Source: an uncultured Pseudodesulfovibrio sp. (GTDB taxonomy: Bacteria > Desulfobacterota > Desulfovibrionia > Desulfovibrionales > Desulfovibrionaceae). From it: DNA of 64,000 nucleotides. The notes below the pieces were generated by a model that did not search any database, had not been told where the DNA came from, and worked only from the letters and a program-made list of their open reading frames with translations. Both the position numbers and the translations under genes were made by a program. Below are positions 11,368 through 23,158 of the stretch, in pieces (within the stretch, counting starts at the first letter, position 1; each line of letters begins with the position of its first letter). The DNA lies in the NCBI RefSeq assembly GCF_963677845.1, contig NZ_OY782498.1:878001-942000 (forward strand), written 5' to 3'.

Positions 11368-11384
11368 ATAGTTTATAGTATAAC

Positions 11385-11416
11385 AAAGCCCCTTGCCGAG
11401 TCGGCAAGGGGCTTTT
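11385..11416. terminator. Bidirectional terminator between creD and the GRE operon
   Basis: AAAGCCCCTTGCC (11385-11397) pairs with GGCAAGGGGCTTT (11403-11415). There is an A-tract on the left and T on the right, so it can serve both converging transcripts. Confidence 0.88.
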
Positions 11417-11448: not shown

Positions 11449-11742
11449 TCAGGCGTTCAGCGGAGTCAGGACAACTTCTTTGTTCTCATTGAATTGTAGG
11501 GAATACGTTTTACCGTATTTTTCCAGAAAGTCTTCTTCTGCAGTGAAAGGGACACCGTTTACTTCAATTTGTACATCATCATCTTCATCCGGTTCGTCCA
11601 TGCCCAGACCGAGCACTATTTTTGCGTGTCAGCCTCCGCCGACTTTGTATTCGCGCAGTCGAACGCAGGTTTCTTCATCTTCGTCTTCAAGCATGGCCCG
11701 GAGCTTTTCAAGCATTTCTTCCGGGACGGTCAGTTCAAACAT
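11449..11742 (-). CDS. HesB/IscA-like selenoprotein (in-frame UGA read as Sec)
   Basis: Read through one UGA codon (11629-11631, residue 38), this frame gives a coherent 97-residue acidic protein. It starts MFELTVPEEMLEKLRAML, has VRLREYKVGGG-U-HAKIVLGLGMDE in the middle and ends EVVLTPLNA. The block matches the A-type scaffold region in which the first conserved cysteine follows GG; here Sec takes that place. The C-terminal Cys-x-Cys of true IscA is absent. HesB-like selenoproteins are a recognised family in deltaproteobacteria. A SECIS-like hairpin follows the UGA (separate entry). The ATG has GAGGG 9 bases upstream and starts 23 bases after the C_GCAxxG gene, so it is the last gene of the GRE operon. 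The alternative, a 37-residue truncated peptide, leaves 60 well-formed codons unexplained. Confidence 0.85.
11601..11628 (-). promoter_or_regulatory. Bacterial SECIS-like hairpin
   Basis: On the coding strand, 18 bases separate the UGA from the apical loop GGTCT (11606-11610), which is closed by TGCTC (11611-11615) and GGGCA (11601-11605) with one G-U pair. In the E. coli fdhF element as I recall it, the loop bases GGUCU also begin 18 bases after UGA. A SelB-binding role is inferred from this match. Confidence 0.8.
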
Positions 11743-11765
11743 ATCGTTACCCTCGTTGATTGTGG

Positions 11766-12308
11766 TTAGAATCTGATGGGCTTAAGCCCGTCTTTGGTAA
11801 ATGGTTCAGTATGGTAGCTGATGACTTCATCTTCGACATCTTTCGCCTCTTGCAGTGCCTTGGGATGGAGAAGCAGATCGGCGCAGATGGCTGTCGCCGA
11901 TTCCACGTAGTCAAGACAGACTCCCTTGGAGTCGGAATTTGGATCGCGGTCCTTGCTCAAATCCCGGCAACAGATGCTGCCGTATTGAGCCAAGAAGCGA
12001 TCATGCAGTGCCTTTGATGCCTTCCTGACTTCTTCATCTTCGGTGGGCACTGGGCCTTTACCGAGAATGAGACTCTGGGCCATGACCGCGCCAGCCAGTG
12101 CGCCGCAAACACATCCTGCATCGCCGATACCACCACAGAATCCTTTGGATATCGCAATGACAATGTCTTGCGATAAACCGCCGTCAAATTCTCGGTTGAT
12201 GACGGTGAGAACGGCCTCGGAGCAGCACATCGAACCATTGCCATACAGTTCTTTGGCCGTTGCGCCAGTTTGTGCGGTGAGGTGTGTATCCTTGGAGCAG
12301 GGTGCCAT
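11766..12308 (-). CDS. C_GCAxxG_C_C-family redox protein
   Basis: This is a 180-residue cysteine-rich protein with the pattern NGSMCCSEAVL ... GFCGGIGDAGCVCGALAGAVMAQSL ... YGSICCRDLS ... CLDYVESATAICADLL. That spacing is the C_GCAxxG_C_C family, predicted to be redox-active or metal-binding; no precise function is known. There is no signal peptide. The start at 12308 follows AAAGGA by 6 bases; the longer open frame upstream would overlap the activase gene. It sits 20 bases after the activase and 23 bases before the HesB-like selenoprotein, in the GRE operon. A role in electron supply or protection for the oxygen-sensitive GRE system is only a guess. Confidence 0.75.
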   Translation of the reverse strand: MAPCSKDTHLTAQTGATAKELYGNGSMCCSEAVLTVINREFDGGLSQDIVIAISKGFCGGIGDAGCVCGALAGAVMAQSLILGKGPVPTEDEEVRKASKALHDRFLAQYGSICCRDLSKDRDPNSDSKGVCLDYVESATAICADLLLHPKALQEAKDVEDEVISYHTEPFTKDGLKPIRF

Positions 12309-12328
12309 CGTGTGTCCTTTCTGATTAC

Positions 12329-13222
12329 CTATACAATGACGGTCTTGAGCCCGTGGTTTGCAAATCGTTCCAGAACGACATCCAATTGTTCCGGTGTGTA
12401 TTCGCTGGACATACGGTAAGGCCACCCGAGGGCGGCGTATTTGTTGCGGCCAAAAGCGTGACACGGCATGACTTCGATTTCAGGGTTATCAAATTCCTTG
12501 AAAAAGTCTGCCATGGCAGCAATGTTCTCATCCGAATCATTCATATCTGGCATTAGAGGCATGCGGAGGCGGACTTGTGTTTTTGAGTTTAAGGCGGCCC
12601 GCAAATTTCGCAGGATTATCGTATTGTCCTGTCCGGTCCATTTCTTGTGCTGTTCCGGGTCCATGTGTTTGCAGTCAAACAAAAAGAGATCAGCCATTTC
12701 GATGGTTTGATCAAAACGGTCAGCGGGACAAAAACCACAGGTGTCAACGGTCACATGGAACCCTTCGTCATGCGCGGCCTGTACCATATCCAGAAAGAAT
12801 TGCCCGCCGGACGTTGGTTCTCCTCCGCCAAAGGTGACTCCGCCGTCAGAATTTTCATAGAACAGAGCGTCTTTGCGCACGACATCCATGACGTCTTCAA
12901 CGGTCATTTCCTTGCCGGATATTTCGCGAGCCTTGCTGGGGCAAACCTCGGCGCATTTGCCACAGTCGGTACATTTTTCGAGATCACGACCAAATTTTTC
13001 GCCCATGGGTATGACCGCCCCATTAGGACAGGCATCCATACAGGCTCCACATCCGGTACACAGTGATTCGAAAAACATCATCTGCGGGGAGGTCTTTTGG
13101 GATTCCGGATTGCTGCACCACAGGCAGGAGAGCGGACAGCCTTTTAAAAATACCGTGGTTCGCAACCCCGGGCCGTCCTGAACAGACATTCGTTGGATAT
13201 TGTATACCATTCCCTGACTCAT
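12329..13222 (-). CDS. Glycyl radical enzyme activase (radical SAM)
   Basis: The activase uses S-adenosylmethionine and a 4Fe-4S cluster to abstract hydrogen from the glycine of its partner enzyme. Counting from the ATG at 13222 the protein has 297 residues. The radical-SAM motif CPLSCLWC follows the segment VQDGPGLRTTVFLKG. The two inserted ferredoxin clusters, CTGCGACMDACP and CTDCGKCAEVCP, are typical of activases for PFL2-type enzymes and absent from PflA. GGGEPTSGG is the SAM-binding GGE-like motif. The start is chosen because GCGGAGAC precedes it; an ATG at 13258 lacks a binding site. It lies just downstream of the GRE gene across a strong hairpin. Confidence 0.9.
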   Translation of the reverse strand: MSQGMVYNIQRMSVQDGPGLRTTVFLKGCPLSCLWCSNPESQKTSPQMMFFESLCTGCGACMDACPNGAVIPMGEKFGRDLEKCTDCGKCAEVCPSKAREISGKEMTVEDVMDVVRKDALFYENSDGGVTFGGGEPTSGGQFFLDMVQAAHDEGFHVTVDTCGFCPADRFDQTIEMADLFLFDCKHMDPEQHKKWTGQDNTIILRNLRAALNSKTQVRLRMPLMPDMNDSDENIAAMADFFKEFDNPEIEVMPCHAFGRNKYAALGWPYRMSSEYTPEQLDVVLERFANHGLKTVIV

Positions 13223-13262
13223 AATTGTCTCCGCAGATATTCGTTTAAGTTTTTCCATGGGG

Positions 13263-13303
13263 GCAGGGTGGGGCCGATAATGTGGAGGGCGACCCCACCC
13301 TGC
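13263..13303 (-). other. Strong intercistronic hairpin between GRE and activase
   Basis: Arms GCAGGGTGGGG (13263-13273) and CCCCACCCTGC (13293-13303) form a perfect 11-bp stem with a 19-base loop and no T-run on the coding strand. It is better explained as an mRNA-stabilising or attenuating element than as a terminator. It would let the GRE be made in excess of its activase, as expected for a catalytic protein and its activator. Confidence 0.6.
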
Positions 13304-13319
13304 GGAGTCTTTTTACTCT

Positions 13320-15773
13320 TTAGGAGTTGTATTCCGTACGTTTGATGATTTCATTCTGTACACCCATGTCCAGACGAGTGAAGTAGGCGCTGAAACCGGC
13401 AACGCGGACAACCAGGTCCGAGTATTCCTTTGGATTGACCTGGGCATCTTTCAGAGTCTTGGAATCTACGCAGTTGAACTGGATGTGGGATCCGCCAAAG
13501 TCGCAGTATGTCTTGATCAGAGAGACCAGTGTGCGTGCGCCCTGAGGTCCTTCCATAACCGAGGGAGAGAACTTCACGTTGAAGTGGTTTGCTCCGTAGC
13601 GGACCGTGTCGATGGCTTCTGCACCGGACTTGATGAGGGCGGTGATGCCTTCATGGTCTGTACCGGGCATGGCGGAGACACTACCGTCGGTCAGCGCTAC
13701 ACCGGCTTTGCGTCCGTTGGGCAGAGCGCCCATGAGTGCGCCGAAGTAGTTGTGGTAGGACAGGGAGTATGCGTCCAGCGGAGTGCGGTATCCGAAGCAG
13801 TCCGGTCCCTGAGCGTGGTGGATGGCGTCTACATCCCTGTAGTATTGCTGCACAAAGCCTTCCACTTCAGGTTGGTCGTTGCCATGTTTGGGTGCTTCAA
13901 AGCACATTTTGCGGATGTCTTCGCAGCCTTCGAAGTTTGATTTGATGGCGTCAAGCATCTCTTGCATGGTCAATTTCTTCGTATCGAAGACAAGATGCTT
14001 GATGGCGAGCAGGGAGTTCGCGGCATCAATACCAGCGGTCATGATGGGATTGACCTGCGGGAAACGGGTACCGCCAGCCTCTTCGCAGACACCCTTTTCG
14101 ATGCAGCCGTCGTACATGGCGGAGCGGAAGACGCTCGGAACGACCTGAAGTCTGGCCATCTGGCTCAGATCAGAGTGCTTCCGGGAGATGTTGAAGAGGT
14201 GATCGAGTTGCTTTTTATAGGCATCGTACACCTCGTCAAAGGATGTGAATTCGGCTGGATCGCCGGTCTCAACACCAACTTTCTTTTTGGTGACAGGGCA
14301 TTTACCGTTGTTCAGCATGACTTCGACGATTTTTGCGAGGCAGGGTTGATCTTCCTGAGTAATGAAGCTGCCCTTTCCGCAGATACCCGTGGAGACACAA
14401 CCGTAGTTGCCGCAGTTTCTGGCGTCTTCCAGAGAGATGCCGCCTTCGTATTGACCGAAGCGGGAGAGGTTACGCTGAATAACGACGTTGTTGTTCAAAA
14501 TCTGGGGCTGGCCAGAACCGCCGCGGATGCATTCCACAACTTTCTTCAGGTAGGATTCTTTCATCTTGGGATGATAGAGCAGGGTCAGCGTGGGCTGAAT
14601 GTTTTTCATCTTGACCTGAGTATCGAGCAGCATTTCTTCCAGCTCGGTGCTGGCATCGTTGCCGTCGGCATCTACACCACCAATGGTGATGCTCTGTCCT
14701 GTGTGGCCGGAAAGGGTGAGAGCGTATGAGTTGCCCTGATATTCAGCCAGTTCGAGGTGCTTGATCCATTGGAATTTGAGCAGCGTGGAGACCTGCTCAC
14801 GTGTGAGGTTGCCTTCGTCGATGTCTTTTTTGAAGAAGGGGTACATGTACTGACCGTAACGACCGGGGGACGTTGCGCATGCCATCTGTTCGATTTCAAT
14901 GGCCAGATGGATGAACCAGAAGGATTGGATGGCTTCGCGGAAATTGCGGGCCGGGAATTCAGGGACGCGGCGGCAGATCTCAGCGATTTCCAACAGCTCT
15001 TTCTTGGCCTTGGGATCACTTTCATCGGCAGCGGTCTTTTCGGCGAGGTCTGCATAGCGGTGAGAGTGGGCGATGACAGCCTCCAAGGTGACGAGCATGG
15101 ACCGATACAGGTCGTGCTTTTCCTTGTTTTCCAGTGTGGTGGGGCAATCTTCGAAGCGTTTTTTTACGTCATCAATGAGCCAGCGCAACCCTTTGTTCAA
15201 TGCCATGGGGTAATCGGCAATACCGGAACCACTCGCGACACTGACATTCTCATAGTACATGCCAGCTTTTGCATACGGCTTGGGGTTAATGCCGTATTTT
15301 TCTTTGAACAGTTTGTTGTTCAGATCAATGCAGGTGCGGCCTTTCCACAATTTGTATGTCTTTTCCAACAGCTCCTGTGTCTCGGCGGGAATCTTCATTT
15401 CGCCAAGAGAAGCCATTTTGGCCATCTGCATTTCTTCCTTGATCCAGGACACGTTCCATTCGGGGTATGCATATACACCGGCTCGTACGCCGGTCAGTGT
15501 ACCAACGATGGGGTTGCCGTCGAGAAAGATGTTCTTTTTGGTCAGGACACGCTCAAATAACTTGGCGCGGATGTAGAAAGTGGATTCACCCTGATATTTT
15601 TCATAGACTTCGTTCAGGAATTGCAGGCGTTCAGGGTCCATTACCTGCGGAGCGTTCATCAAGAAGTCTTTCAACTCCTTGACGCGGTCTTCGGCGGTGT
15701 CCCAGTCGATGCCATACCCCATGGAGGGGGAGGCAGAGGAATCAGAATCTTTTATCATGGAAAGATTGGTCAT
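13320..15773 (-). CDS. Glycyl radical enzyme, PFL2-like, substrate unassigned
   Basis: This is an 817-residue enzyme with the C-terminal glycyl radical motif RVAGFSAYF (Gly793) and the active-site loop NYGCVSTG (Cys459). The length and overall pattern place it with the PFL2-like eliminases, decarboxylases and X-succinate synthases, not with pyruvate formate-lyase, which has Cys-Cys. The residue two after the catalytic cysteine is Ser461, whereas choline, glycerol, propanediol and isethionate lyases as I recall them have Glu there. I therefore do not assign CutC, IslA or a diol dehydratase. No microcompartment or TRAP-transporter genes accompany it. CAGGAG precedes the ATG, and a sigma-54 promoter lies about 80 bases upstream. 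It is the first gene of a four-gene operon. Confidence 0.9.
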   Translation of the reverse strand: MTNLSMIKDSDSSASPSMGYGIDWDTAEDRVKELKDFLMNAPQVMDPERLQFLNEVYEKYQGESTFYIRAKLFERVLTKKNIFLDGNPIVGTLTGVRAGVYAYPEWNVSWIKEEMQMAKMASLGEMKIPAETQELLEKTYKLWKGRTCIDLNNKLFKEKYGINPKPYAKAGMYYENVSVASGSGIADYPMALNKGLRWLIDDVKKRFEDCPTTLENKEKHDLYRSMLVTLEAVIAHSHRYADLAEKTAADESDPKAKKELLEIAEICRRVPEFPARNFREAIQSFWFIHLAIEIEQMACATSPGRYGQYMYPFFKKDIDEGNLTREQVSTLLKFQWIKHLELAEYQGNSYALTLSGHTGQSITIGGVDADGNDASTELEEMLLDTQVKMKNIQPTLTLLYHPKMKESYLKKVVECIRGGSGQPQILNNNVVIQRNLSRFGQYEGGISLEDARNCGNYGCVSTGICGKGSFITQEDQPCLAKIVEVMLNNGKCPVTKKKVGVETGDPAEFTSFDEVYDAYKKQLDHLFNISRKHSDLSQMARLQVVPSVFRSAMYDGCIEKGVCEEAGGTRFPQVNPIMTAGIDAANSLLAIKHLVFDTKKLTMQEMLDAIKSNFEGCEDIRKMCFEAPKHGNDQPEVEGFVQQYYRDVDAIHHAQGPDCFGYRTPLDAYSLSYHNYFGALMGALPNGRKAGVALTDGSVSAMPGTDHEGITALIKSGAEAIDTVRYGANHFNVKFSPSVMEGPQGARTLVSLIKTYCDFGGSHIQFNCVDSKTLKDAQVNPKEYSDLVVRVAGFSAYFTRLDMGVQNEIIKRTEYNS

Positions 15774-15849
15774 TGATATCTCCTGTTTGTGTAAGATTTT
15801 CCCTGAAGAAAATTGAAAGCGGTGTTCATTCGCTTGTTCTTTTTGTCAC

Positions 15850-15865
15850 TAGCAGGAGGTGTGCC
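15850..15865 (-). promoter_or_regulatory. Sigma-54 promoter of the GRE operon
   Basis: On the minus strand TGGCACACCTCCTGCT has GG and GC exactly 10 bases apart and differs from the -24/-12 consensus TGGCACG-N4-TTGCW at two positions. Transcription would begin near 15838, about 65 bases before the GRE start. The divergent gene encodes a sigma-54 activator. Confidence 0.82.
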
Positions 15866-15948
15866 ATGCGGCTTATTACTCGTGTTTTTGTTCTTAATTC
15901 TTTGTTATAATAGACTTTATTTGTATTTGTGCTCATTTTTGAGATAGT

Positions 15949-15981
15949 GAAAAAAGTTTTTTTTTGTAAAAAAAACTTTCC
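15949..15981. promoter_or_regulatory. A/T palindrome, candidate activator site upstream of GRE
   Basis: An AAGTTTTTTTTT...AAAAAAAACTT inverted repeat lies about 84 bases upstream of the sigma-54 promoter. A related 33-base segment at 19253-19285 lies between the other two sigma-54 promoters (24 of 33 positions agree when one copy is reversed). The low complexity of the sequence makes this weak evidence for an upstream activating site. Confidence 0.3.
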
Positions 15982-16075
15982 TTTTTAATAAAAATTTTTC
16001 ATTGGAGATGCGGAAGCGTAGCCGTTTATGTCTGCATTTCGATTGCCCACACCAACTTTGAAGAGGTCGTGAGAT

Positions 16076-17572
16076 ATGTATTTTGACGAAAAAAAGTTCT
16101 TTAATGTCAGTCGTGAAAGCGTTTTGACACCTTCCATGAAAGCCATTTGGGATGATATGGGACTTGGGGTCGCCGTCGTGGATGCCAATGGTATCTGTGA
16201 ATACATGAATCCCATTCAGAGTCAGGTGGACGGTTTTGGACGGATACCTGTGGTTGGGCAACACATAACAAGTCTTTATGTGCCACACGAGTTGGAGTGT
16301 ATTCCCACCATGGAATGTCTACAGAAGGGGCAACCGCTTCTCAAGAAGAGTTATTTTTACAAGACGACAAATAATTATCTTGCCAGCACGGTTTCTGATT
16401 TCTTTCCGCTGTTTGATAACGGAAAAAAGGATGGCGTCATTGCCTTTACCATTTGGACCGGCACGACGTCACTGGTGAAGAGACAAAGGCGTCCTGCCAA
16501 GGCGATTGTTCCTGGGCGAAGCTCTTATGAATATTATACATTCGACAGTTTGGTCGGGAAAGATGATGCCCTGATTGAAGTGCTGAACGAAGCGCGAACT
16601 GCTGCGCAGGCTCCGTCTCCTGTGATGATTTGGGGAGAAAGCGGGACGGGTAAGGAGTTGTTTGCTCAGGCAATTCATGCTGCGAGTGAGAGGTGTGATC
16701 ATCCCCTTGTTCCGGTGAACTGTGCGGCTATCCCCGAAAATTTGTTGGAAGGTATTCTCTTTGGGACGGCTAAGGGGGCGTATACTGACGCTGCTGACAA
16801 GCCGGGGCTTTTTGAAGAAGCTGATGGTGGAACATTGCTTCTTGATGAGCTGAACTCCATGCCCATGGGATTGCAGGCCAAGCTTCTTCGTGTGCTTCAG
16901 GAGAAACGTGTGCGTCGACTCGGGTCGCGTACGGAAATCCCTGTGGACGTGCGAGTTATCAGTATATTGAATGTCGATCCGCTTTACGCAGTGGAGCAGA
17001 AAATATTGCGGCGTGATTTGTTTTATCGTCTTGCTGTCGTGGGGCTTGCCGTGCCGAGCTTAAGCCAGCGTAAGCAGGATATTCCGTTGTTGGCTCGAAC
17101 GTTTATTGATCGTTCAGAGCAGCGGAAAGGCAGAAAGGTGATCAGTATTGATGACGATGTCCTTCGTATGTTTCATGATTATGAATGGCCAGGTAATATT
17201 CGTGAGCTGCTTCATGTCATTGAGGGAAGTCTTGCTTTGATTGGCGATCGCCTTTCGATTGATTGGGGGTGCCTCCCGCGTCATTTCAGAGATGCCTGCA
17301 GAAACGCTGCCGCACCGCAAATTACCGAGTCCATTTCGCCTGAACCAGTGTTGAGTCAGGCGACGGAAAAGGCTTTTTATGATTACCATGCGGTCAAAAG
17401 AAGCAGTGTGGTTTCACTCAAGGGGTGTGTGCAGGAGTATGAGGCGGAGTGTATCCGCAATGTGTTACGGGTGACGGGCGGTAATGTGGCCAAGGCCGCT
17501 CGGATAATGGAAATCACCGGTGCTGGTTTGCGGTACAAAATTAAACAGCTGAATATTGAAGAAGAGGATTAG
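16076..17572 (+). CDS. Sigma-54-dependent transcriptional activator with PAS sensor
   Basis: This 498-residue enhancer-binding protein has an N-terminal PAS-like domain (about 25-135), an AAA+ domain (about 155-390) with Walker A GESGTGKE (187-194) and Walker B GTLLLDE, and a C-terminal Fis-type helix-turn-helix (about 460-492). The sigma-54-contacting loop reads GAYTDA (234-239) instead of the canonical GAFTGA. Similar loops occur in some RocR/PrdR-like activators of anaerobes, and the surrounding GTAKGAYTDAADKPGLFEEA fits that group. It is transcribed divergently from the GRE gene, and three sigma-54 promoters surround it, so it most likely controls the whole island in response to the GRE substrate. 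Confidence 0.9.
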   Translation: MYFDEKKFFNVSRESVLTPSMKAIWDDMGLGVAVVDANGICEYMNPIQSQVDGFGRIPVVGQHITSLYVPHELECIPTMECLQKGQPLLKKSYFYKTTNNYLASTVSDFFPLFDNGKKDGVIAFTIWTGTTSLVKRQRRPAKAIVPGRSSYEYYTFDSLVGKDDALIEVLNEARTAAQAPSPVMIWGESGTGKELFAQAIHAASERCDHPLVPVNCAAIPENLLEGILFGTAKGAYTDAADKPGLFEEADGGTLLLDELNSMPMGLQAKLLRVLQEKRVRRLGSRTEIPVDVRVISILNVDPLYAVEQKILRRDLFYRLAVVGLAVPSLSQRKQDIPLLARTFIDRSEQRKGRKVISIDDDVLRMFHDYEWPGNIRELLHVIEGSLALIGDRLSIDWGCLPRHFRDACRNAAAPQITESISPEPVLSQATEKAFYDYHAVKRSSVVSLKGCVQEYEAECIRNVLRVTGGNVAKAARIMEITGAGLRYKIKQLNIEEED

Positions 17573-17594
17573 GCGGTAAATTTATCGGGAGCAG

Positions 17595-17612
17595 GGGAGG
17601 AATGATCCTCCC
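17595..17612. terminator. Possible shared terminator between convergent genes
   Basis: GGGAGGA (17595-17601) pairs with TCCTCCC (17606-17612) around a 4-base loop, in the 57-base gap between the activator and the TauE gene. The T-run begins 12 bases later on the plus strand, so it is a weak terminator at best. Confidence 0.4.
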
Positions 17613-17629
17613 GCTACTCGCATGTTTTT

Positions 17630-18364
17630 TTACAACAAGGAACGCCCCAAGCAGACTATACCTGCCAGTACAATGACGGCCATGAGAACGCGTCTGAATG
17701 TCTCGACATTGATGTGTTTCACAACGGGAAAGGCACAAAATGTTCCTAGAATAGTGGCCGGAACTCCATATATGACATAGTCGAATAATTCCGGGGTGTA
17801 CAAACCTGCCGAGGCTTGCAGGACGCAGGTCATGGTACCTCTGATAACAAAGAATACACCAAGGGTTCCAAGAAAGACCCGAGGTTTCCAGTTGACGTAC
17901 AGACCGTACGCCCCAATAGGCGGCCCATCGAAAGAAATGGCTGTTCCCAGCAAGCCTGCGCCGAATCCGGCCGCTCCTCCCCGCCCCCATGATTCTTCGT
18001 GGACTTCTTTTACATGAAATGTCTGTTGCCAATATACATAGTATAAAAGTAAAGCGCCGACGGCTCCCTGCAAGATGGCACCGGAGACAAATTGAAGGAT
18101 AAACAGCCCTATAATAGCTCCAGGGATGGACCCGACGAGCATGGGCCATAAAGCTGATACGCGGCAATGGCGGAAATGCATGCACGCGATACAACCGTCC
18201 ATGATGACATTCAGGATGCAACTGAGAGGGATCAGGTCATGCATAGGGATGAACATGGCGGCCACAGGGACTGCGACCATGGCCCCTCCAATGCCGCTGA
18301 CGCCGGAAACAAAGCCGCCAACAAACCACGCGCAGAAAACCATGATGTATATTGGATCAGGCAT
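17630..18364 (-). CDS. TauE/SafE-family membrane permease
   Basis: This 244-residue protein has about seven to eight hydrophobic helices and the glycine-rich repeats typical of TauE/SafE (GGFVSGVSGIGGAMVAVP near residues 16-33, and GFGAGLLGTAISFDGPPIG in the second half). Members export sulfite, sulfoacetate or other small organic anions, but many are uncharacterised. Its ATG overlaps the end of the upstream DUF4125-like gene (ATGCCTGA), so the two are translationally coupled and share a sigma-54 promoter. Its presence in a GRE island could point to a sulfonate or carboxylate substrate or product, but this is inference. Confidence 0.85.
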   Translation of the reverse strand: MPDPIYIMVFCAWFVGGFVSGVSGIGGAMVAVPVAAMFIPMHDLIPLSCILNVIMDGCIACMHFRHCRVSALWPMLVGSIPGAIIGLFILQFVSGAILQGAVGALLLYYVYWQQTFHVKEVHEESWGRGGAAGFGAGLLGTAISFDGPPIGAYGLYVNWKPRVFLGTLGVFFVIRGTMTCVLQASAGLYTPELFDYVIYGVPATILGTFCAFPVVKHINVETFRRVLMAVIVLAGIVCLGRSLL

Positions 18365-18944
18365 CGAATGATTTTCCTGTCGTGTGTGAGTGTTGCGCGA
18401 TCAGGTTTGCTTCACAGTTTCTCAGCGAGCCATGCCCCAGTTTAACCATCAGAAGTTCATACCGTTCCTGAACCAAATTCATTTTTTCTTTTTGGGCGTT
18501 TTGTACGCATATTTCGTACGCATCCATGGTGGAAGTGGAGTAAGTTTCGAGCTCGCAACCGAGATAGAGACAAAAGCTCTCATGCCCATCGGGGTGGATT
18601 GTATGAGGGAATTCCTTGGCAACGTCTTTGCGCCATGCGCTTTCTATGGCGACGATTTTTTTAATACGTGGATCTGTGCTGATGGACGGAATCAATTGGT
18701 CCATAAGCGCGTATTTTTCGGTCATGAAGTTACGCCCTTTTTTTTCAGCATGTTGCAAGTCGTTGCGGTAGGACTGGAGAAACTCGTCCGAGAGAACTCT
18801 GTGCGTGATTTCGCGCATGATGCGAAATGATTCAGGCCGTTCTTGACACATGGATGTGCCGCCTTGATTTTTTACTGCAAGGAACATGTCCAGTTCAAGA
18901 TTTATGATTTCCTTAATGAGGTTTGTACGAGTGTTTTTTGACAT
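18357..18944 (-). CDS. DUF4125-like protein
   Basis: This is a 195-residue soluble protein with no signal peptide. Recognisable features are the early block EIINLELDMFLAVKNQGGTSMCQERPESFRIMREI (about residues 11-45), which fits the DUF4125 signature as I remember it, and cysteines at CLYLGCELE, CVQNAQ and LRNCEAN. No catalytic motif is evident. AAGGAG lies 6 bases before the ATG. It is the first gene of a two-gene transcript with the TauE permease, from a predicted sigma-54 promoter at 19104-19119. Association with the GRE island suggests a shared pathway, but its biochemical role is unknown. Confidence 0.65.
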   Translation of the reverse strand: MSKNTRTNLIKEIINLELDMFLAVKNQGGTSMCQERPESFRIMREITHRVLSDEFLQSYRNDLQHAEKKGRNFMTEKYALMDQLIPSISTDPRIKKIVAIESAWRKDVAKEFPHTIHPDGHESFCLYLGCELETYSTSTMDAYEICVQNAQKEKMNLVQERYELLMVKLGHGSLRNCEANLIAQHSHTTGKSFDA

Positions 18945-19103
18945 CGTTTTCTCCTTATTCCCCTGAATTGTCTGAGCATAGTTGAGTGCGGGGGTGTTGG
19001 TATGTTTGCTGTTCGAGTGTAGCGTTTCGATTTACACAAATGGAGTTGAGTAAGAGGATCAAGTCCCTCGGCAACTTTATGAAAAAAAGAACGAGCATTG
19101 TTG

Positions 19104-19119
19104 TGCAAAGCTGGTGCCG
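19104..19119 (-). promoter_or_regulatory. Sigma-54 promoter of the DUF4125-TauE pair
   Basis: On the minus strand CGGCACCAGCTTTGCA has GGCAC and TTGCA with the required 10-base GG to GC distance; only the first base and base 7 differ from consensus. Transcription would start near 19092, leaving a leader of about 150 bases. Confidence 0.8.
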
Positions 19120-19391
19120 TTTGTCTTTTTTTATTTTCCGTGTGATTTAATTTTGATAAAGAGCTTTTAACATATTGAAATAAATGAAATATTTATAAAA
19201 TTTTAAATATCATACGATCTTTTCAATTTTATTTTTTTACTGGTAGGGGTGTGGAAAAATATTTTGTAAAAGAAAAGTTTTTTTCTCAAAAAGATATTTT
19301 TTTTTATTTTTGATGAGGAGTAATAAATGGCATGTTGTCAAATAGTCAATTTTTTTAGGTAAATAGATAGATGGTGAAGAATTTCACGTAG
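19120..19391. promoter_or_regulatory. A/T-rich intergenic region between two divergent sigma-54 promoters
   Basis: I find no convincing open frame here. The stretch is strongly A/T-rich with many T-tracts, as in bent DNA that helps enhancer-bound activators reach sigma-54 polymerase. A 33-base segment at 19253-19285 resembles one at 15949-15981 upstream of the GRE promoter and is a candidate activator site serving both directions (107 and 134 bases from the two promoters). Confidence 0.45.
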
Positions 19392-19407
19392 TGGCATCGT
19401 CTTTGCT
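19392..19407 (+). promoter_or_regulatory. Sigma-54 promoter of the APC permease gene
   Basis: TGGCATCGTCTTTGCT has GG and GC 10 bases apart, a full TTGCT -12 box and a single change in the -24 box. Transcription would start near 19418, giving a leader of about 270 bases before the permease start. Confidence 0.8.
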
Positions 19408-19417
19408 TATACACATC

Positions 19418-19690
19418 TAGCAATTCACAAATTTGCTTTTACCTGAAGAGATTGAAACGCGGAGGACCTGTTCGCCCCTCTGCAATGACACAAAGACTGT
19501 GTGGTTCGCTCTGGATTTTTCAGAGTTCATGGTCGCCAGGTGGCTGGACGTATTTGTTTTACGTCTCATGGCAGAGGCGTTGTCTGCATCGGGAAGTATG
19601 TTGGCAGCACCGCTCTGAATGCCTGTCTGTATTAATTTGATGATTGATACAGGCATCCACAAAGAACTCCTTAAATTGAAGAGAGTTGAC
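19418..19690 (+). other. Long untranslated leader of the permease gene
   Basis: About 270 bases separate the predicted transcription start from the permease start codon. A 61-codon frame (19433-19618) is open but has no binding site and does not look coding. A hairpin TGCCTGT...ACAGGCA (near 19620-19655) precedes the gene. The length would allow an RNA element or small-RNA target, but I recognise no known riboswitch. Confidence 0.35.
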
Positions 19691-21214
19691 ATGTCTCAAG
19701 ATAAACATTTGAAATTGGAAAAATCGCTTTCCCCAGCTCAGGTCTGGGCGTTGGCGCTTGGATCGATAGTTGGCTGGGGTTGCTTTGTGCTGCCCGGCGA
19801 TATGTTTTTGCCTCAAGCCGGTCCAATGGGAACCTTGATCGGTTTTTTGGTAGGAGCCTGTTTACTGTGCTTTGTCGCGGTCTGCTATAGTTATATGATT
19901 AAGTATGCCCCGGTTGCTGGTGGCGCTTTTGCGTATGCCTATGTCGGGTTCGGACCGACTGCGGCGTTTATTTGTGGTTGGGCTCTCGTGCTCGGATATA
20001 TAGCCATTATTGGTATTGATATTGCCGCACTTGCACTTATTTTTCGTTTTCTTTTCCCGGGCGTTTTTGAGTTTGGCGCGTTGTATTCCATTGCCGGATG
20101 GGAAGTTTACGCGGGTGAAGCCCTCCTCATGTCTGGTGCGACTTTGCTGTTTGGTTGGTTGAATTATCGGGGTATCAGTTTTGCTGGTAAGTTGCAGGTT
20201 GTTCTCGCTTTCCTGCTTACCGTTGGTATTATTAGCCTGTTCACAGGTGCGGCTTCATTGGAAACCGCCAGTATGAGCAATCTTGTTCCCTTGTTTGCAG
20301 AACACCGCTCTGTCCTTTCCTGCGTGTTGGTTATTTTTGCTATTTCACCCTTCCTTTTTGTGGGGTTTGATACTGTACCGCAGGCAGCTGAGGAATTTTC
20401 TTTTGATCCCGCACGAGCTCGTAATATCATGATCATCGCCATTTTGTGCGGCGTGGTTCTCTACAGCCTCGTGACACTCTCTGTCGCAATTGTTTTGCCG
20501 TACCCGGAAATGCTCGCAAAGATGGATGCCCTTCGTGCAAGTGGCGGCACAGCGTGGGCAACGGGTGAAGCAGCCACAATGGCTTTCGGTAAGTTTGGTG
20601 CAATCGTGTTGGCCTGTGCTGTCATGGGCGCTGTCTGCACTGGAATTAACGGTTTTTATATCGCGACCTCTCGACTGCTGCTCAGCATGGCCCGTGGTGG
20701 AATCCTGCCTTCCTGGTTCGGTGATATTCATCCCAAATACCGTTCTCCCTACAAGGCTATTCTGTTTACTATCGCTATTGTTTTGCTGACTCCTTTTGCC
20801 GGTCGTGCTGTTGTTGTCTGGATTGTGGACATGAGTTCTGTGGGTACAGGAATTGGTTATCTCTTTACTTGCCTTGCTGCACGTCGAGTTTTGCTTGGTA
20901 GCCCTGAAGTGACCGAAAGAGCCACTCGTATGTTCTGCTGCGTTGTGGGTACATTGACCGCCGTAATGTGCATAGTCCTGCTGCTTGTCCCCGGTTCTCC
21001 AGCTTCCATTGGTGTGGCTTCTCGCTGGTGCCTAGTTGTATGGGTTGGTATGGGCTTTTTCTTCTACTTCTCCAACAAGAGCGCATGGGCAAAGCTACCT
21101 GAAGCGGAATTGCGTGCACAGATTCTTGGTCGTCGAGATATTCCTGTGTTTTTCAAATCCCGTGAGCCGCAGCCTGTGTTGCAAGAGCAAACGCAGAGTT
21201 CCTCGGCTGAATAG
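19691..21214 (+). CDS. APC-superfamily amino acid/amine permease
   Basis: This 507-residue inner-membrane transporter has about twelve helices. The first, ALALGSIVGWGCFVLPGD, carries the conserved glycine-rich unwound segment of APC permeases, followed by GGAFAYAYVGFGP. The ATG at 19691 opens the conserved LSPAQVWALALG region and follows GAAGAGAG; an in-frame ATG at 19619 has no binding site. Family members import amino acids, polyamines or small amines. The gene stands alone behind a sigma-54 promoter and is divergent from the DUF4125-TauE pair. It is probably the uptake system for the substrate of the GRE pathway, which would then be an amino acid or amine-like compound; this is inferred from context. 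Confidence 0.82.
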   Translation: MSQDKHLKLEKSLSPAQVWALALGSIVGWGCFVLPGDMFLPQAGPMGTLIGFLVGACLLCFVAVCYSYMIKYAPVAGGAFAYAYVGFGPTAAFICGWALVLGYIAIIGIDIAALALIFRFLFPGVFEFGALYSIAGWEVYAGEALLMSGATLLFGWLNYRGISFAGKLQVVLAFLLTVGIISLFTGAASLETASMSNLVPLFAEHRSVLSCVLVIFAISPFLFVGFDTVPQAAEEFSFDPARARNIMIIAILCGVVLYSLVTLSVAIVLPYPEMLAKMDALRASGGTAWATGEAATMAFGKFGAIVLACAVMGAVCTGINGFYIATSRLLLSMARGGILPSWFGDIHPKYRSPYKAILFTIAIVLLTPFAGRAVVVWIVDMSSVGTGIGYLFTCLAARRVLLGSPEVTERATRMFCCVVGTLTAVMCIVLLLVPGSPASIGVASRWCLVVWVGMGFFFYFSNKSAWAKLPEAELRAQILGRRDIPVFFKSREPQPVLQEQTQSSSAE

Positions 21215-21334: not shown

Positions 21335-23158
21335 CTAACCGGTGATGGCCGATTGAAAACTTTTTGCAATACTAGGGGAATTCTGACCAATGATGACAAG
21401 AAAGCATTCCTTGTGCTCTTGATCGGCGGGAGTCAGTGAATGCGCTCCTGGGACGTACTGGAATATTTCAGGTTCTTCCGTATCGTGGAAACGGACGACG
21501 CCTTTGGCTCGGAGGACCTGATCGGAAAGCTTGGCCACGGATTTTTCGAATATGGTGCGGTCAAGAGGGGCGCTCAAATGAATCAATGAACTTTGGATGT
21601 TGTCGTCTTCATGGGTGGCATTGTGCCCCATGGGTTTGAGTTGTGGTGTAGGGCGGGTGAGTTCTTTTCTGAAATTCACTCCATACAGTGTGGTAGACGG
21701 GATATCTCCATGGGACATGAAGTACAGGTCGCCTGAAGGGTTAAGCTCGCGCAGAGTTTGTTGCAGTGAAATCAGAGTGTTGTCATCTACAAGATCGGTT
21801 TTGTTGACCAGAAGGATATCAGCCAGTCGAACTTGACTGCGTGCTACTTCGAATTCTGTCAGAGTGTGATCCGCACCGACCGCGTCAATGACGGTTGTCA
21901 CTGAGGCGAAGTCCAACATGTCGTCGAGGTCCGCCAGTTCCGAAAGCAGGTTGGCAGGATTGGCCAAGCCAGTTGTTTCCAATACGACGAAATCCGGTTG
22001 AAATTCCGAAAGGATACCAGAGAGAGCCGAGCGCAGGCTCCCAGCCAGTGTGCAACAGACGCATCCTTCATCTACTTCGGTTACGGCATAGCTTTGACCA
22101 AGGAGTTTCCCATCCAGTCCTTTTTGGCCGATTTCATTTTGAATGACCGCGACAAAGCCGTTTTTGGCCGCCTGATCTTCGATGAATCGGGTGAGAAAGG
22201 TGGTTTTACCCGACCCGAGAAAACCGGTCAGGACGATGAGACGCGGGCGATCTGTAATGCCCATGGTGCGCTTGTCCAAACTGTTGGTCGCACCCGGCAG
22301 GTCGGCCGACAGCCAAGAGGAATCGGCGAATTCATCAGGAATGGAGGCCGGGGGAGACCATGTCAGTTCCGGTGCTTTGAGTTCTGGGTTGTCCGGGACA
22401 CGTGTGTTCCAGCCAAGACCGAGGCGAATATCTCGTGTGTCTGGTGCTGGTTCGCTCTGAATACCGGTTTCCTTGCCATACGTTCGCCGCATTCCGGGGC
22501 GGGTTTGTCTGGTGAGCGATTCCGGAGTTGTTTTCAGGCAGTATGATGCGGATGCTGCCAAGGCATCAAACAAGGGCATGGCTGTTTCCCATGCCGGGAA
22601 ATTTTGGTCTTCTTCTCCAGGGGTGACTGCTTGTACCAACCCAGTTGGTGTTTCGAGCGTGACTCCGTCCAGTGCGATGACAGTGTCGTTTTCCGGGGCA
22701 GTCAAAGTCAGGGCCACACCTGATTCTTCCGCGAGATAAAAGGCTTCAAGGACACCGATTCCAAAGAGGGCGCAGAGATCAGGGTATAGGGTGAATTCTC
22801 GAACACGATCAAGATAGGCGTCCTGTTGTGCTGCGATTCCCGCCTGCACACTGAAGAATTCGATCAGGTCTTCATCCGGGGCGGGAAAGTAGGCGATGTG
22901 GAAAGTTGCCTGTCCCATGGTGTCGGATTCGCTGACATTGAGAAACTTCAGGCCGTAAACACCCCGCATGCCTGTGACTCGCACCGTCAATCCGCCTTGT
23001 CCTTTGGCGCAGTCGCGAACACCACGCCATCCGAGACGGTGGCGAACGCCGGGAATGAAATTGGCGCGTGTCATCAGTGCGCGTGGAAGTTCCATCGCGG
23101 CTTGTGCCGGACTGGTCTGTAAGGCCGGTGGGAGTAATGTGTTGAGGGAGACAGGCAT
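21335..23158 (-). CDS. CobW/COG0523-family GTPase with a 305-residue N-terminal extension
   Basis: The C-terminal 300 residues are a typical CobW/COG0523 metal-chaperone GTPase. Walker A is GFLGSGKTT (312-320), the metal-binding motif CVCC is at 366-369, VLETTGLANP and NKTD are GTP-site motifs, and a CobW_C-like end follows. The N-terminal 305 residues have no motif I recognise: they are acidic, with cysteines at 50, 129 and 207 only, and contain a hydrophobic beta-rich part (residues 55-175). COG0523 proteins deliver Zn, Co or Fe to target enzymes. It is the last gene of a GntR-controlled operon, directly after an exported metallo-hydrolase, which suggests a metal-insertion role. CGGAG lies 6 bases before the ATG. 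Confidence 0.82.
   Translation of the reverse strand: MPVSLNTLLPPALQTSPAQAAMELPRALMTRANFIPGVRHRLGWRGVRDCAKGQGGLTVRVTGMRGVYGLKFLNVSESDTMGQATFHIAYFPAPDEDLIEFFSVQAGIAAQQDAYLDRVREFTLYPDLCALFGIGVLEAFYLAEESGVALTLTAPENDTVIALDGVTLETPTGLVQAVTPGEEDQNFPAWETAMPLFDALAASASYCLKTTPESLTRQTRPGMRRTYGKETGIQSEPAPDTRDIRLGLGWNTRVPDNPELKAPELTWSPPASIPDEFADSSWLSADLPGATNSLDKRTMGITDRPRLIVLTGFLGSGKTTFLTRFIEDQAAKNGFVAVIQNEIGQKGLDGKLLGQSYAVTEVDEGCVCCTLAGSLRSALSGILSEFQPDFVVLETTGLANPANLLSELADLDDMLDFASVTTVIDAVGADHTLTEFEVARSQVRLADILLVNKTDLVDDNTLISLQQTLRELNPSGDLYFMSHGDIPSTTLYGVNFRKELTRPTPQLKPMGHNATHEDDNIQSSLIHLSAPLDRTIFEKSVAKLSDQVLRAKGVVRFHDTEEPEIFQYVPGAHSLTPADQEHKECFLVIIGQNSPSIAKSFQSAITG

Follow-up and report, generated by a model that had tools for sequence, protein, structure and literature searches.

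The island described here spans positions 11449–21214 of a 64,000-nucleotide window, the whole stretch of DNA analysed, which lies at G000:C1:878001-942000 in the 3.70-Mb, single-contig genome (G000) of an uncultured Pseudodesulfovibrio sp. A gene for a sigma-54 activator occupies the middle of the island. To its left, on the minus strand, is an operon encoding a glycyl radical enzyme (GRE) and a HesB-like selenoprotein, and to its right are genes for TauE/SafE and DUF4125 proteins on the minus strand and for an APC permease on the plus strand. The GRE belongs to a lineage in which the glutamate that defines the GRE eliminases is replaced, and in the window's family, the Desulfovibrionaceae, its gene and that of the HesB-like protein are found together with very few exceptions.

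The GRE gene (13320–15773, minus strand) encodes 817 residues matched by Pfam PF02901 and PF01228, an assignment borne out by residue counts, by the tree and by a structural model with a pLDDT of 91. It is followed on the same strand by genes for a radical-SAM glycyl radical activase (12329–13258; TIGR02494, 369 bits against a cut-off of 174), for a C_GCAxxG_C_C putative redox protein in its Cys form, an optional member of the operon (11766–12308; PF09719 and TIGR01909 above cut-off), and for the 97-residue, ErpA-related (HesB-like) selenoprotein (11449–11742). A hairpin resembling an intrinsic terminator, read directly and carrying no score, lies 3′ of the selenoprotein gene (11384–11416, minus strand). 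The activator gene (16076–17572, plus strand) encodes an AAA+ domain (PF00158) and a Fis helix-turn-helix (PF02954), and its translation has GAYTDA as a variant of GAFTGA. The TauE/SafE family transporter (17630–18364, minus strand; PF01925) and the DUF4125 protein (18357–18944, minus strand; PF13526), predicted to be all-helical in a model with a pLDDT of 92, come next, followed by the APC-type amino acid permease (19691–21214, plus strand; PF13520), whose reading frame is open from 19619 and whose start was chosen at the ATG at 19691. This is the gene set named in an earlier, sequence-only reading of the island, and all of it is found by Pfam and NCBIfam matches. That reading also gave the activator as PAS-AAA-Fis; the AAA and Fis parts stand, and the PAS part gives no Pfam PAS match at 1e-3.

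Sigma-54 promoters and the regulon

Three sigma-54 −24/−12 promoters had been proposed for the island, and all three are present. They lie upstream of the GRE operon (15851–15866, minus strand, shifted from 15850–15865), of the DUF4125–TauE pair (19104–19119, minus strand) and of the APC gene (19392–19407, plus strand), and are the only matches in 64 kb to the degenerate pattern YGGCAYN5YTGCW, which was fitted after the three sites had been seen. By this pattern, three matches compare with 0.85 expected, and at least three were obtained in 3 of 100 shuffles. The plain sigma-54 consensus with one mismatch finds the same three matches in the 64-kb window, which is chance level (2.82 expected; at least three in 58 of 100 shuffles). 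Since the strict-consensus count in the window alone is not above chance, conservation in relatives was used as the promoter test. Genes in the relatives' loci were called by codon scoring, longest-open-reading-frame calls being wrong in GC-rich loci; the loci come from two collections that overlap and are not independent.

For the GRE, the 450 nt before the gene were searched for their best GG-N10-GC site in 59 distinct regions from clades A–C of the lineage defined below. A site with no more than two mismatches is present in 53 of these, against 2.5% in mononucleotide shuffles; the six relatives without one are L015, L016, L123, L128, L132 and the clade C copy of L115. For the remaining genes the best site within 500 nt upstream was taken in clade A loci. 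The APC gene is preceded by a site with at most one mismatch in 22 of 23 loci, and the DUF4125 gene by a site with at most two in 14 of 16 (L134, where the gene is split, being counted twice). The controls at two mismatches or fewer, namely the operon-internal TauE gene (1/25) and the activator gene (3/34), are near chance, the shuffled rates being 4.4% and 3.6%. We take the three promoters to be real because of their position and their conservation in relatives. With these promoters conserved and the controls near chance, a regulon made up of the GRE operon, the APC gene and DUF4125–TauE is supported, and the island is predicted to be one sigma-54 regulon. An AT-rich dyad read upstream of the GRE promoter (15948–15981) is only a tentative candidate for the site of the activator; upstream AAAAA-N8-TTTTT dyads occur in 32 of 69 regions, compared with no more than three for any dyad in mononucleotide shuffles.

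Part of this regulation has been described already. In the accessible part of their 2015 study, Kazakov et al. predict that DVU2275 of Desulfovibrio vulgaris, a single-component activator in which GAYTDA replaces GAFTGA, drives DVU2272-DVU2269 from a sigma-54 promoter; they place an AT-rich palindrome upstream of DVU2272, find the regulon conserved in Desulfovibrionales and name it pyruvate formate-lyase/pyruvate metabolism (PMC4641369). The window has the same arrangement: an activator whose sigma-54 interaction domain carries GAYTDA, divergent from a sigma-54-driven operon of GRE and activase with an AT-rich upstream site. DVU2272-DVU2269 is apparently the counterpart of the window operon, the orthology being drawn by inference rather than alignment. 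The selenoprotein link, the loss of the eliminase motif CXE, the second cysteine and the APC and DUF4125–TauE promoters are, in contrast, absent from the accessible text of the 2015 account. In the portion available of a 2024 metabolic study of D. vulgaris, DVU_2272 appears as a putative pyruvate formate-lyase and has values where undetected proteins show a dash (PMC10920352); the main text of the D. vulgaris mutant library paper makes no mention of DVU2272 (PMC10102598). The suggestion of an undescribed route thus stands for the GRE, which lies outside the families tested, and holds only in part for the regulon, whose apparent D. vulgaris counterpart was predicted in 2015 (PMC4641369). The system is genuine, conserved and largely uncharacterised, with its regulation partly described. 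As far as our literature searches reach, the selenoprotein partner and the altered active site are unreported: no report was found of the link between the GRE and a HesB-like protein or selenoprotein, of the loss of CXE, or of the APC and DUF4125–TauE members, most subscription literature being outside the search.

The GRE lineage and its active site

The window protein is placed in the GRE superfamily by PF02901 and PF01228, by its fold, by Cys459 and by Gly793 in the glycyl loop RVAGFSA. Its Cys loop reads GCVSTG, with Ser461 two residues after the cysteine, in agreement with the Cys-Val-Ser given by the sequence-only reading. The GRE eliminases are defined by a CXE motif in the Cys loop, the one catalytic motif common to those known (PMC8473560). 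In the GRE tree the window protein and its relatives form a separate lineage (Shimodaira–Hasegawa-like approximate likelihood ratio test, SH-aLRT, 100), in which CXE gives way to CV followed by S, G, A or T. Position 461 is one of these four residues in 66 of 66 sequences from clades A–D, with E in none, whereas E is found in 59 of the 60 other GREs fetched. A second cysteine, Cys299, is present in 65 of the 66 (the other has X) compared with 3 of the 60, and in the sequence alignment it falls opposite the catalytic Asp278 of HypD and Thr312 of IslA. At the level of sequence, these counts show a lineage that keeps the glycyl radical site and one catalytic cysteine, is without the glutamate of CXE and has a near-invariant second cysteine.

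GRE identity is 52–69% in clade B, 47–49% in clade C and 39–43% in clade D; the nearest named relative of the window GRE, at 99%, comes from a Pseudodesulfovibrio metagenome-assembled genome. The family is present in the human-gut strain D. piger ATCC 29098 (L003). One clade A GRE (G191:C4:107379-109577) has a single in-frame TGA in the search output.

The window GRE falls below every NCBIfam GRE equivalog cut-off, reaching none of those for CutC, HpsG, HpfG or the indoleacetate and 4-hydroxyphenylacetate decarboxylases, and it is at most 32% identical to the solved GREs listed. Judged by profile cut-offs and identities, it falls in none of the characterised clusters compared, a placement that would have refuted the sequence-only reading. 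HypD, the trans-4-hydroxy-L-proline dehydratase, provides the best NCBIfam model, the best sequence match in the PDB and the best Foldseek match, and the fold is the same; the score with NF043068, however, is 513.8 bits against a cut-off of 1100, and in the window protein Glu436 of HypD is replaced by Ser, Asp278 by Cys, and His160 and Asp339 by Gly, while Phe340 is deleted. The isethionate sulfite-lyase IslA/IseG and the sulfopropanediol dehydratase HpsG are, like the window enzyme, GREs of sulfate/sulfite reducers, but they share 28–29% identity with it, and both CXE and the sulfonate-binding Arg/Gln of IslA are absent. Among the isethionate sulfite-lyase residues, Arg189, Gln193 and Trp374 are aligned with gaps and Arg678 with Asp, the gapped stretch holding an insertion specific to IslA/HpsG. 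The window genome has a second GRE, of the IslA/HpsG type and with its own activase (L081; G000:C1:2218116-2220050, minus strand), which is closest to the solved HpsG (6lon, 1372.7 bits).

The ErpA-related selenoprotein and its coupling to the GRE

With TGA read as selenocysteine (Sec) at codon 38 (11629–11631, minus strand), the HesB-like open reading frame passes the NCBIfam model NF033940 (ErpA_rel, ErpA-related Fe-S insertion protein) at 141.5 bits, the cut-off being 65. In nearly all of 74 distinct, partly truncated rows of the alignment this column is U or C. A hairpin of the bacterial selenocysteine insertion sequence (SECIS) type, GUGCUC-GGUCU-GGGCAU, lies at 11600–11616 (minus strand). 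All 35 distinct Sec copies picked have a hairpin at this place, which begins some 12 nt past the UGA codon and shows compensatory changes, GUACUC/GGGUAU and GUGCUC/GAGCAU among them; the 35 omit some copies (L019, L020 and L114, for example), and one L119 copy is filed as Cys. Most Cys copies lack the hairpin, and about a quarter, judged by eye, retain one. As the single-sequence fold downstream of the UGA is not significant (z −0.42), the hairpin is convincing only through comparison. Both selA and tRNA-Sec are present in the window genome. The Sec/Cys exchange, the conserved SECIS hairpin, selA and tRNA-Sec together support the selenocysteine reading, by which the gene would encode a selenoprotein.

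Canonical A-type Fe-S carriers (IscA, ErpA and SufA) have a C-terminal Cys-x-Cys pair besides their first cysteine. The window protein differs in having only one conserved Sec/Cys column, and the ErpA and IscA/HesB models score below cut-off. Its relation to NF033940 was assessed by model name and score only; to that family as named, the present analysis adds the near-exclusive coupling to a GRE and the Sec form. Another HesB-type protein with Sec is the HesB-like selenoprotein of TIGR01911, to judge from the accessible parts of PMC13188914 and of PMC1794560, the latter recording a HesB-like selenoprotein in D. vulgaris. TIGR01911 is nevertheless a separate model with its own motif, UxGP in the review table as far as that source was available (PMC13188914); the window protein gives no match to it at E ≤ 1, and some clade B and C homologues match it below cut-off. 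Between one and three ErpA_rel copies are found per locus, and Sec and Cys paralogues stand in tandem in several loci.

The coupling was surveyed in 288 Desulfovibrionaceae genomes, with thresholds of E ≤ 1e-150 for the GRE and E ≤ 1e-5 for ErpA_rel. The GRE is present in 54 genomes and ErpA_rel in 56; 53 have both, 231 have neither, one has the GRE only (G123, clade C) and three have ErpA_rel only (G105, which is 77% complete, and G247 and G255, with weak matches). ErpA_rel thus accompanies the GRE in 53 of 54 genomes and occurs in 3 of the 234 others (Fisher p 5e-53, uncorrected for the relatedness of the genomes). Above the curated ErpA_rel cut-off there are 52 genomes, 51 of them with the GRE. 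A phylum-wide draw of 395 genomes yielded five above this cut-off, one of which (G301) is from outside the window's family; in four of the five the GRE shares the 3.3-kb locus, and the remaining one is G000 itself. Four more genomes in the draw have ErpA_rel matches below cut-off and no GRE match in their loci.

Proximity gives a similar picture. Among GREs with at least 2.5 kb of downstream flank, those with an ErpA_rel-type gene no more than 4 kb away number 10/10 in clade A, 18/18 in clade B, 4/5 in clade C and 0/7 in clade D, and 1/49 among other GREs, this single one sharing its locus with a clade A GRE; with shorter flanks the counts are 15/22, 1/2 and 1/1 for clades A, B and C, and 1/12 for others. 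The profile used in this 4-kb test was built from the loci themselves, whereas the NCBIfam test is independent of them. Gene content thus shows the predicted GRE and ErpA_rel to be coupled in the window's family. The two proteins had been set down as unknown redox proteins along with each other, the HesB-like protein and the C_GCAxxG protein; the former proves to be the most faithful partner of the GRE rather than an incidental neighbour, and the latter is optional. Among the 30 short clade A loci L083–L112 the C_GCAxxG gene is present in 10, and the remaining 20 have a HesB-like gene after the activase without it.

In L137 (G028; 17077–19897) a CutC-like GRE with CVE follows the APC gene, and a Cys-type ErpA_rel copy lies about 130 bases away. 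A QueG-like Fe-S protein was considered as a specific partner and rejected: only 2 of the 288 family genomes have it, each along with the GRE (in G016 the two are on different contigs), as do 10 of the 395 phylum genomes, with the GRE in none of the ten loci fetched (2.7–3.8 kb). One of these, L168, has an SsuA-like neighbour.

Gene neighbourhoods and the possible reaction

The clade A loci L133–L152 recurrently contain the GRE, the activase, one or two HesB-like genes, the activator, APC and TauE. APC and TauE are not seen in the truncated loci L142 and L149, and several loci in the set lack DUF4125. Clades B and C mostly have the GRE, activase and HesB-like gene, with TRAP, SsuABC-like ABC, MFS, DASS or SDF carriers, so that the transporter (APC, TRAP, SsuABC-like, DASS or SDF) varies by lineage; relatives of the TRAP solute-binding proteins indicate no decisive ligand. 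SsuABC-like ABC transporters are found in the clade B and C loci L015, L016, L115, L116 and L132 and the clade D loci L021, L023 and L024 (L022 and L075 being truncated there), and the SsuA-like protein of L115 matches a sulfonate-binding protein at E 0.0046 only. In L132 (clade C) an SsuABC–GRE–activase operon continues into a 719-residue fusion that joins a C-terminal O-acetylhomoserine sulfhydrylase (TIGR01326, 645.5 bits against a cut-off of 495.1) to the QueG-like Fe-S protein considered above.

On this basis we tentatively favour a sigma-54-switched uptake-and-cleavage regulon, in which the GRE may cleave the C–S bond of an organosulfur compound taken up by the cell. On sensing an effector, the activator would switch on the APC gene for uptake, the GRE–activase–selenoprotein operon for cleavage, and DUF4125–TauE. 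The Cys459 thiyl radical would abstract a hydrogen from the imported organosulfur anion, which may be amino-acid-like or sulfonate-like; the sulfur group would depart by β-scission, and Cys299 would receive the sulfur or donate a hydrogen to the sulfur group. The ErpA-related selenol/thiol protein would then reduce the oxidised or sulfur-bearing Cys299, or carry the sulfur off, and the freed sulfite or sulfide could be respired, assimilated or exported through TauE. A β-scission that expels a sulfur radical is chemically reasonable here because no glutamate base is needed, and a cysteine at the leaving-group side together with a selenol/thiol partner would fit the capture and removal of sulfur. 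The lean towards organosulfur comes from TauE, which occurs in clade A loci and in one clade C locus (L131), from the SsuABC-like transporters, from the sulfhydrylase fusion of L132 and from a rhodanese gene that precedes the clade D GREs of L021 by about 6 kb. Each of these clues is weak, and two come from single loci.

Much of the difficult bond cleavage in anoxic guts and sediments is the work of GREs, and their chemistry would be broadened by a lineage that lacks CXE and is linked to a selenoprotein. To our knowledge, a two-cysteine GRE with a Sec partner would be the first selenoprotein-dependent GRE system. The deep lineage, with its eliminase glutamate swapped for a two-cysteine site and its dedicated one-selenocysteine HesB-type partner, could be a radical C–S lyase for an organosulfur compound common in guts and sediments, although we hold this to be less likely than not. 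The GRE and ErpA_rel form an immediate gene pair for testing.

Several observations weigh against C–S cleavage. The sulfonate residues Arg189, Gln193 and Arg678 of IslA are not conserved. The rhodanese and the sulfhydrylase fusion are each found in one locus, and the Fe-S half of the fusion is non-specific and occurs without the GRE. Transporters of the TRAP, DASS, SDF and APC types do not point to sulfur in particular, and TauE-family proteins move other anions too. The predicted location of Cys299 in the active site comes from sequence alignment and not from superposition. ErpA_rel is not obligatory across the lineage, since it is lacking in G123 and in clade D (Lachnospiraceae/Butyrivibrio), where there is no HesB-like gene and Cys299 is nevertheless kept, and the ErpA_rel-type copy of L127 is without Sec or Cys at the critical position.

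C–S cleavage has two close rivals: in one the two cysteines would work reductively, and in the other the selenoprotein would be an accessory subunit. In the former, Cys459 and Cys299 would give two electrons to an amino-acid-like substrate, sulfur not being required, and the ErpA-related selenoprotein, with help from the C_GCAxxG protein, would re-reduce the disulfide at each turnover. In class III ribonucleotide reductase a cysteine pair supplies electrons. The second conserved cysteine, a Sec/Cys partner with one chalcogen residue, the C_GCAxxG redox protein of some loci and the amino acid permease of clade A would all suit such a thiol-consuming enzyme, which we nonetheless regard as rather unlikely. 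It is unlikely, too, that the GRE is, in line with the sequence-only reading, an ordinary eliminase that acts on an amine or amino acid to remove water, an amine or some other group, Ser461 or water taking the place of the glutamate and ErpA_rel serving only to mature or protect the activase or the enzyme. HypD and other eliminases do give the best models and matches, the APC permease is consistent with such a substrate, and the name of the ErpA family refers to Fe-S insertion; but the HypD residues Asp278, His160, Asp339 and Phe340 are replaced or deleted, no glutamate remains at position 461 in the lineage, and for E470Q IslA and E436Q HypD the accessible parts of the reports give no detected activity.

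Small Fe-S subunits are known in benzylsuccinate synthase and 4-hydroxyphenylacetate decarboxylase. The ErpA-related protein might by analogy serve the GRE as a structural or regulatory subunit that tunes the radical and uses its Sec/Cys to bind a metal or cluster. The gene order GRE–activase–(C_GCAxxG)–ErpA_rel, the near-perfect co-occurrence and the metal or cluster binding suggested by its HesB-type family would agree with this, whereas a number of copies that ranges from one to three, with tandem Sec/Cys paralogues, would be unusual for a fixed subunit, and we consider the role improbable. Far less probable is the cleavage of an organometal or metalloid compound, with the Sec/Cys protein and Cys299 handling Hg, As or similar. 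Parts of the L015 ABC transporter match the SaoA, SaoP and SaoX models, all below cut-offs, and metal-ligand roles are proposed for Sao selenoproteins in the accessible part of a review (PMC13188914). The similarity of this transporter is generic to SsuABC families, however, and the clade A neighbours scanned, which were few, have no look of metal resistance. Least credible of all is a pyruvate formate-lyase, a label that does not fit the window's enzyme, as the TIGR01255 score is 73.8 bits against a cut-off of 994.2 and a single Cys459 in GCVS stands in place of the adjacent Cys418–Cys419 pair. The other D. vulgaris protein so labelled, DVU2824, appears to be an isethionate lyase, presumably the solved IseG (5ymr). 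In favour of the label there is the annotation of DVU2272, the apparent orthologue, in the available parts of two publications (PMC4641369; PMC10920352).

Several clade B loci add TPR, DUF4125 and DUF4037 proteins. DUF4125 with DUF4037 and/or TPR proteins is found near the clade B GREs of L013, L014, L018, L019, L117, L118, L120, L122, L125 and L126; LrcL (DUF4125) and LrcM (DUF4037) are expressed proteins of unknown function in limonene degradation (PMC12583861). Clade B and clade C GREs share one cluster in G124 (L115) and G270 (L119), and in G052 clade A and clade B GREs lie about 50 kb apart (L127 and L141). Butyrivibrio has tandem clade D GREs (L021:6570-11089 and L022:973-5772), which in L021 adjoin the SsuABC-like transporter, and FtsX/ABC proteins are also found there. 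Beyond the island, window positions 21335–23158 encode a CobW-type GTPase whose N-terminal stretch of about 300 residues is without a Pfam match; L001, L133 and L134 are the only loci in which this gene adjoins the island.

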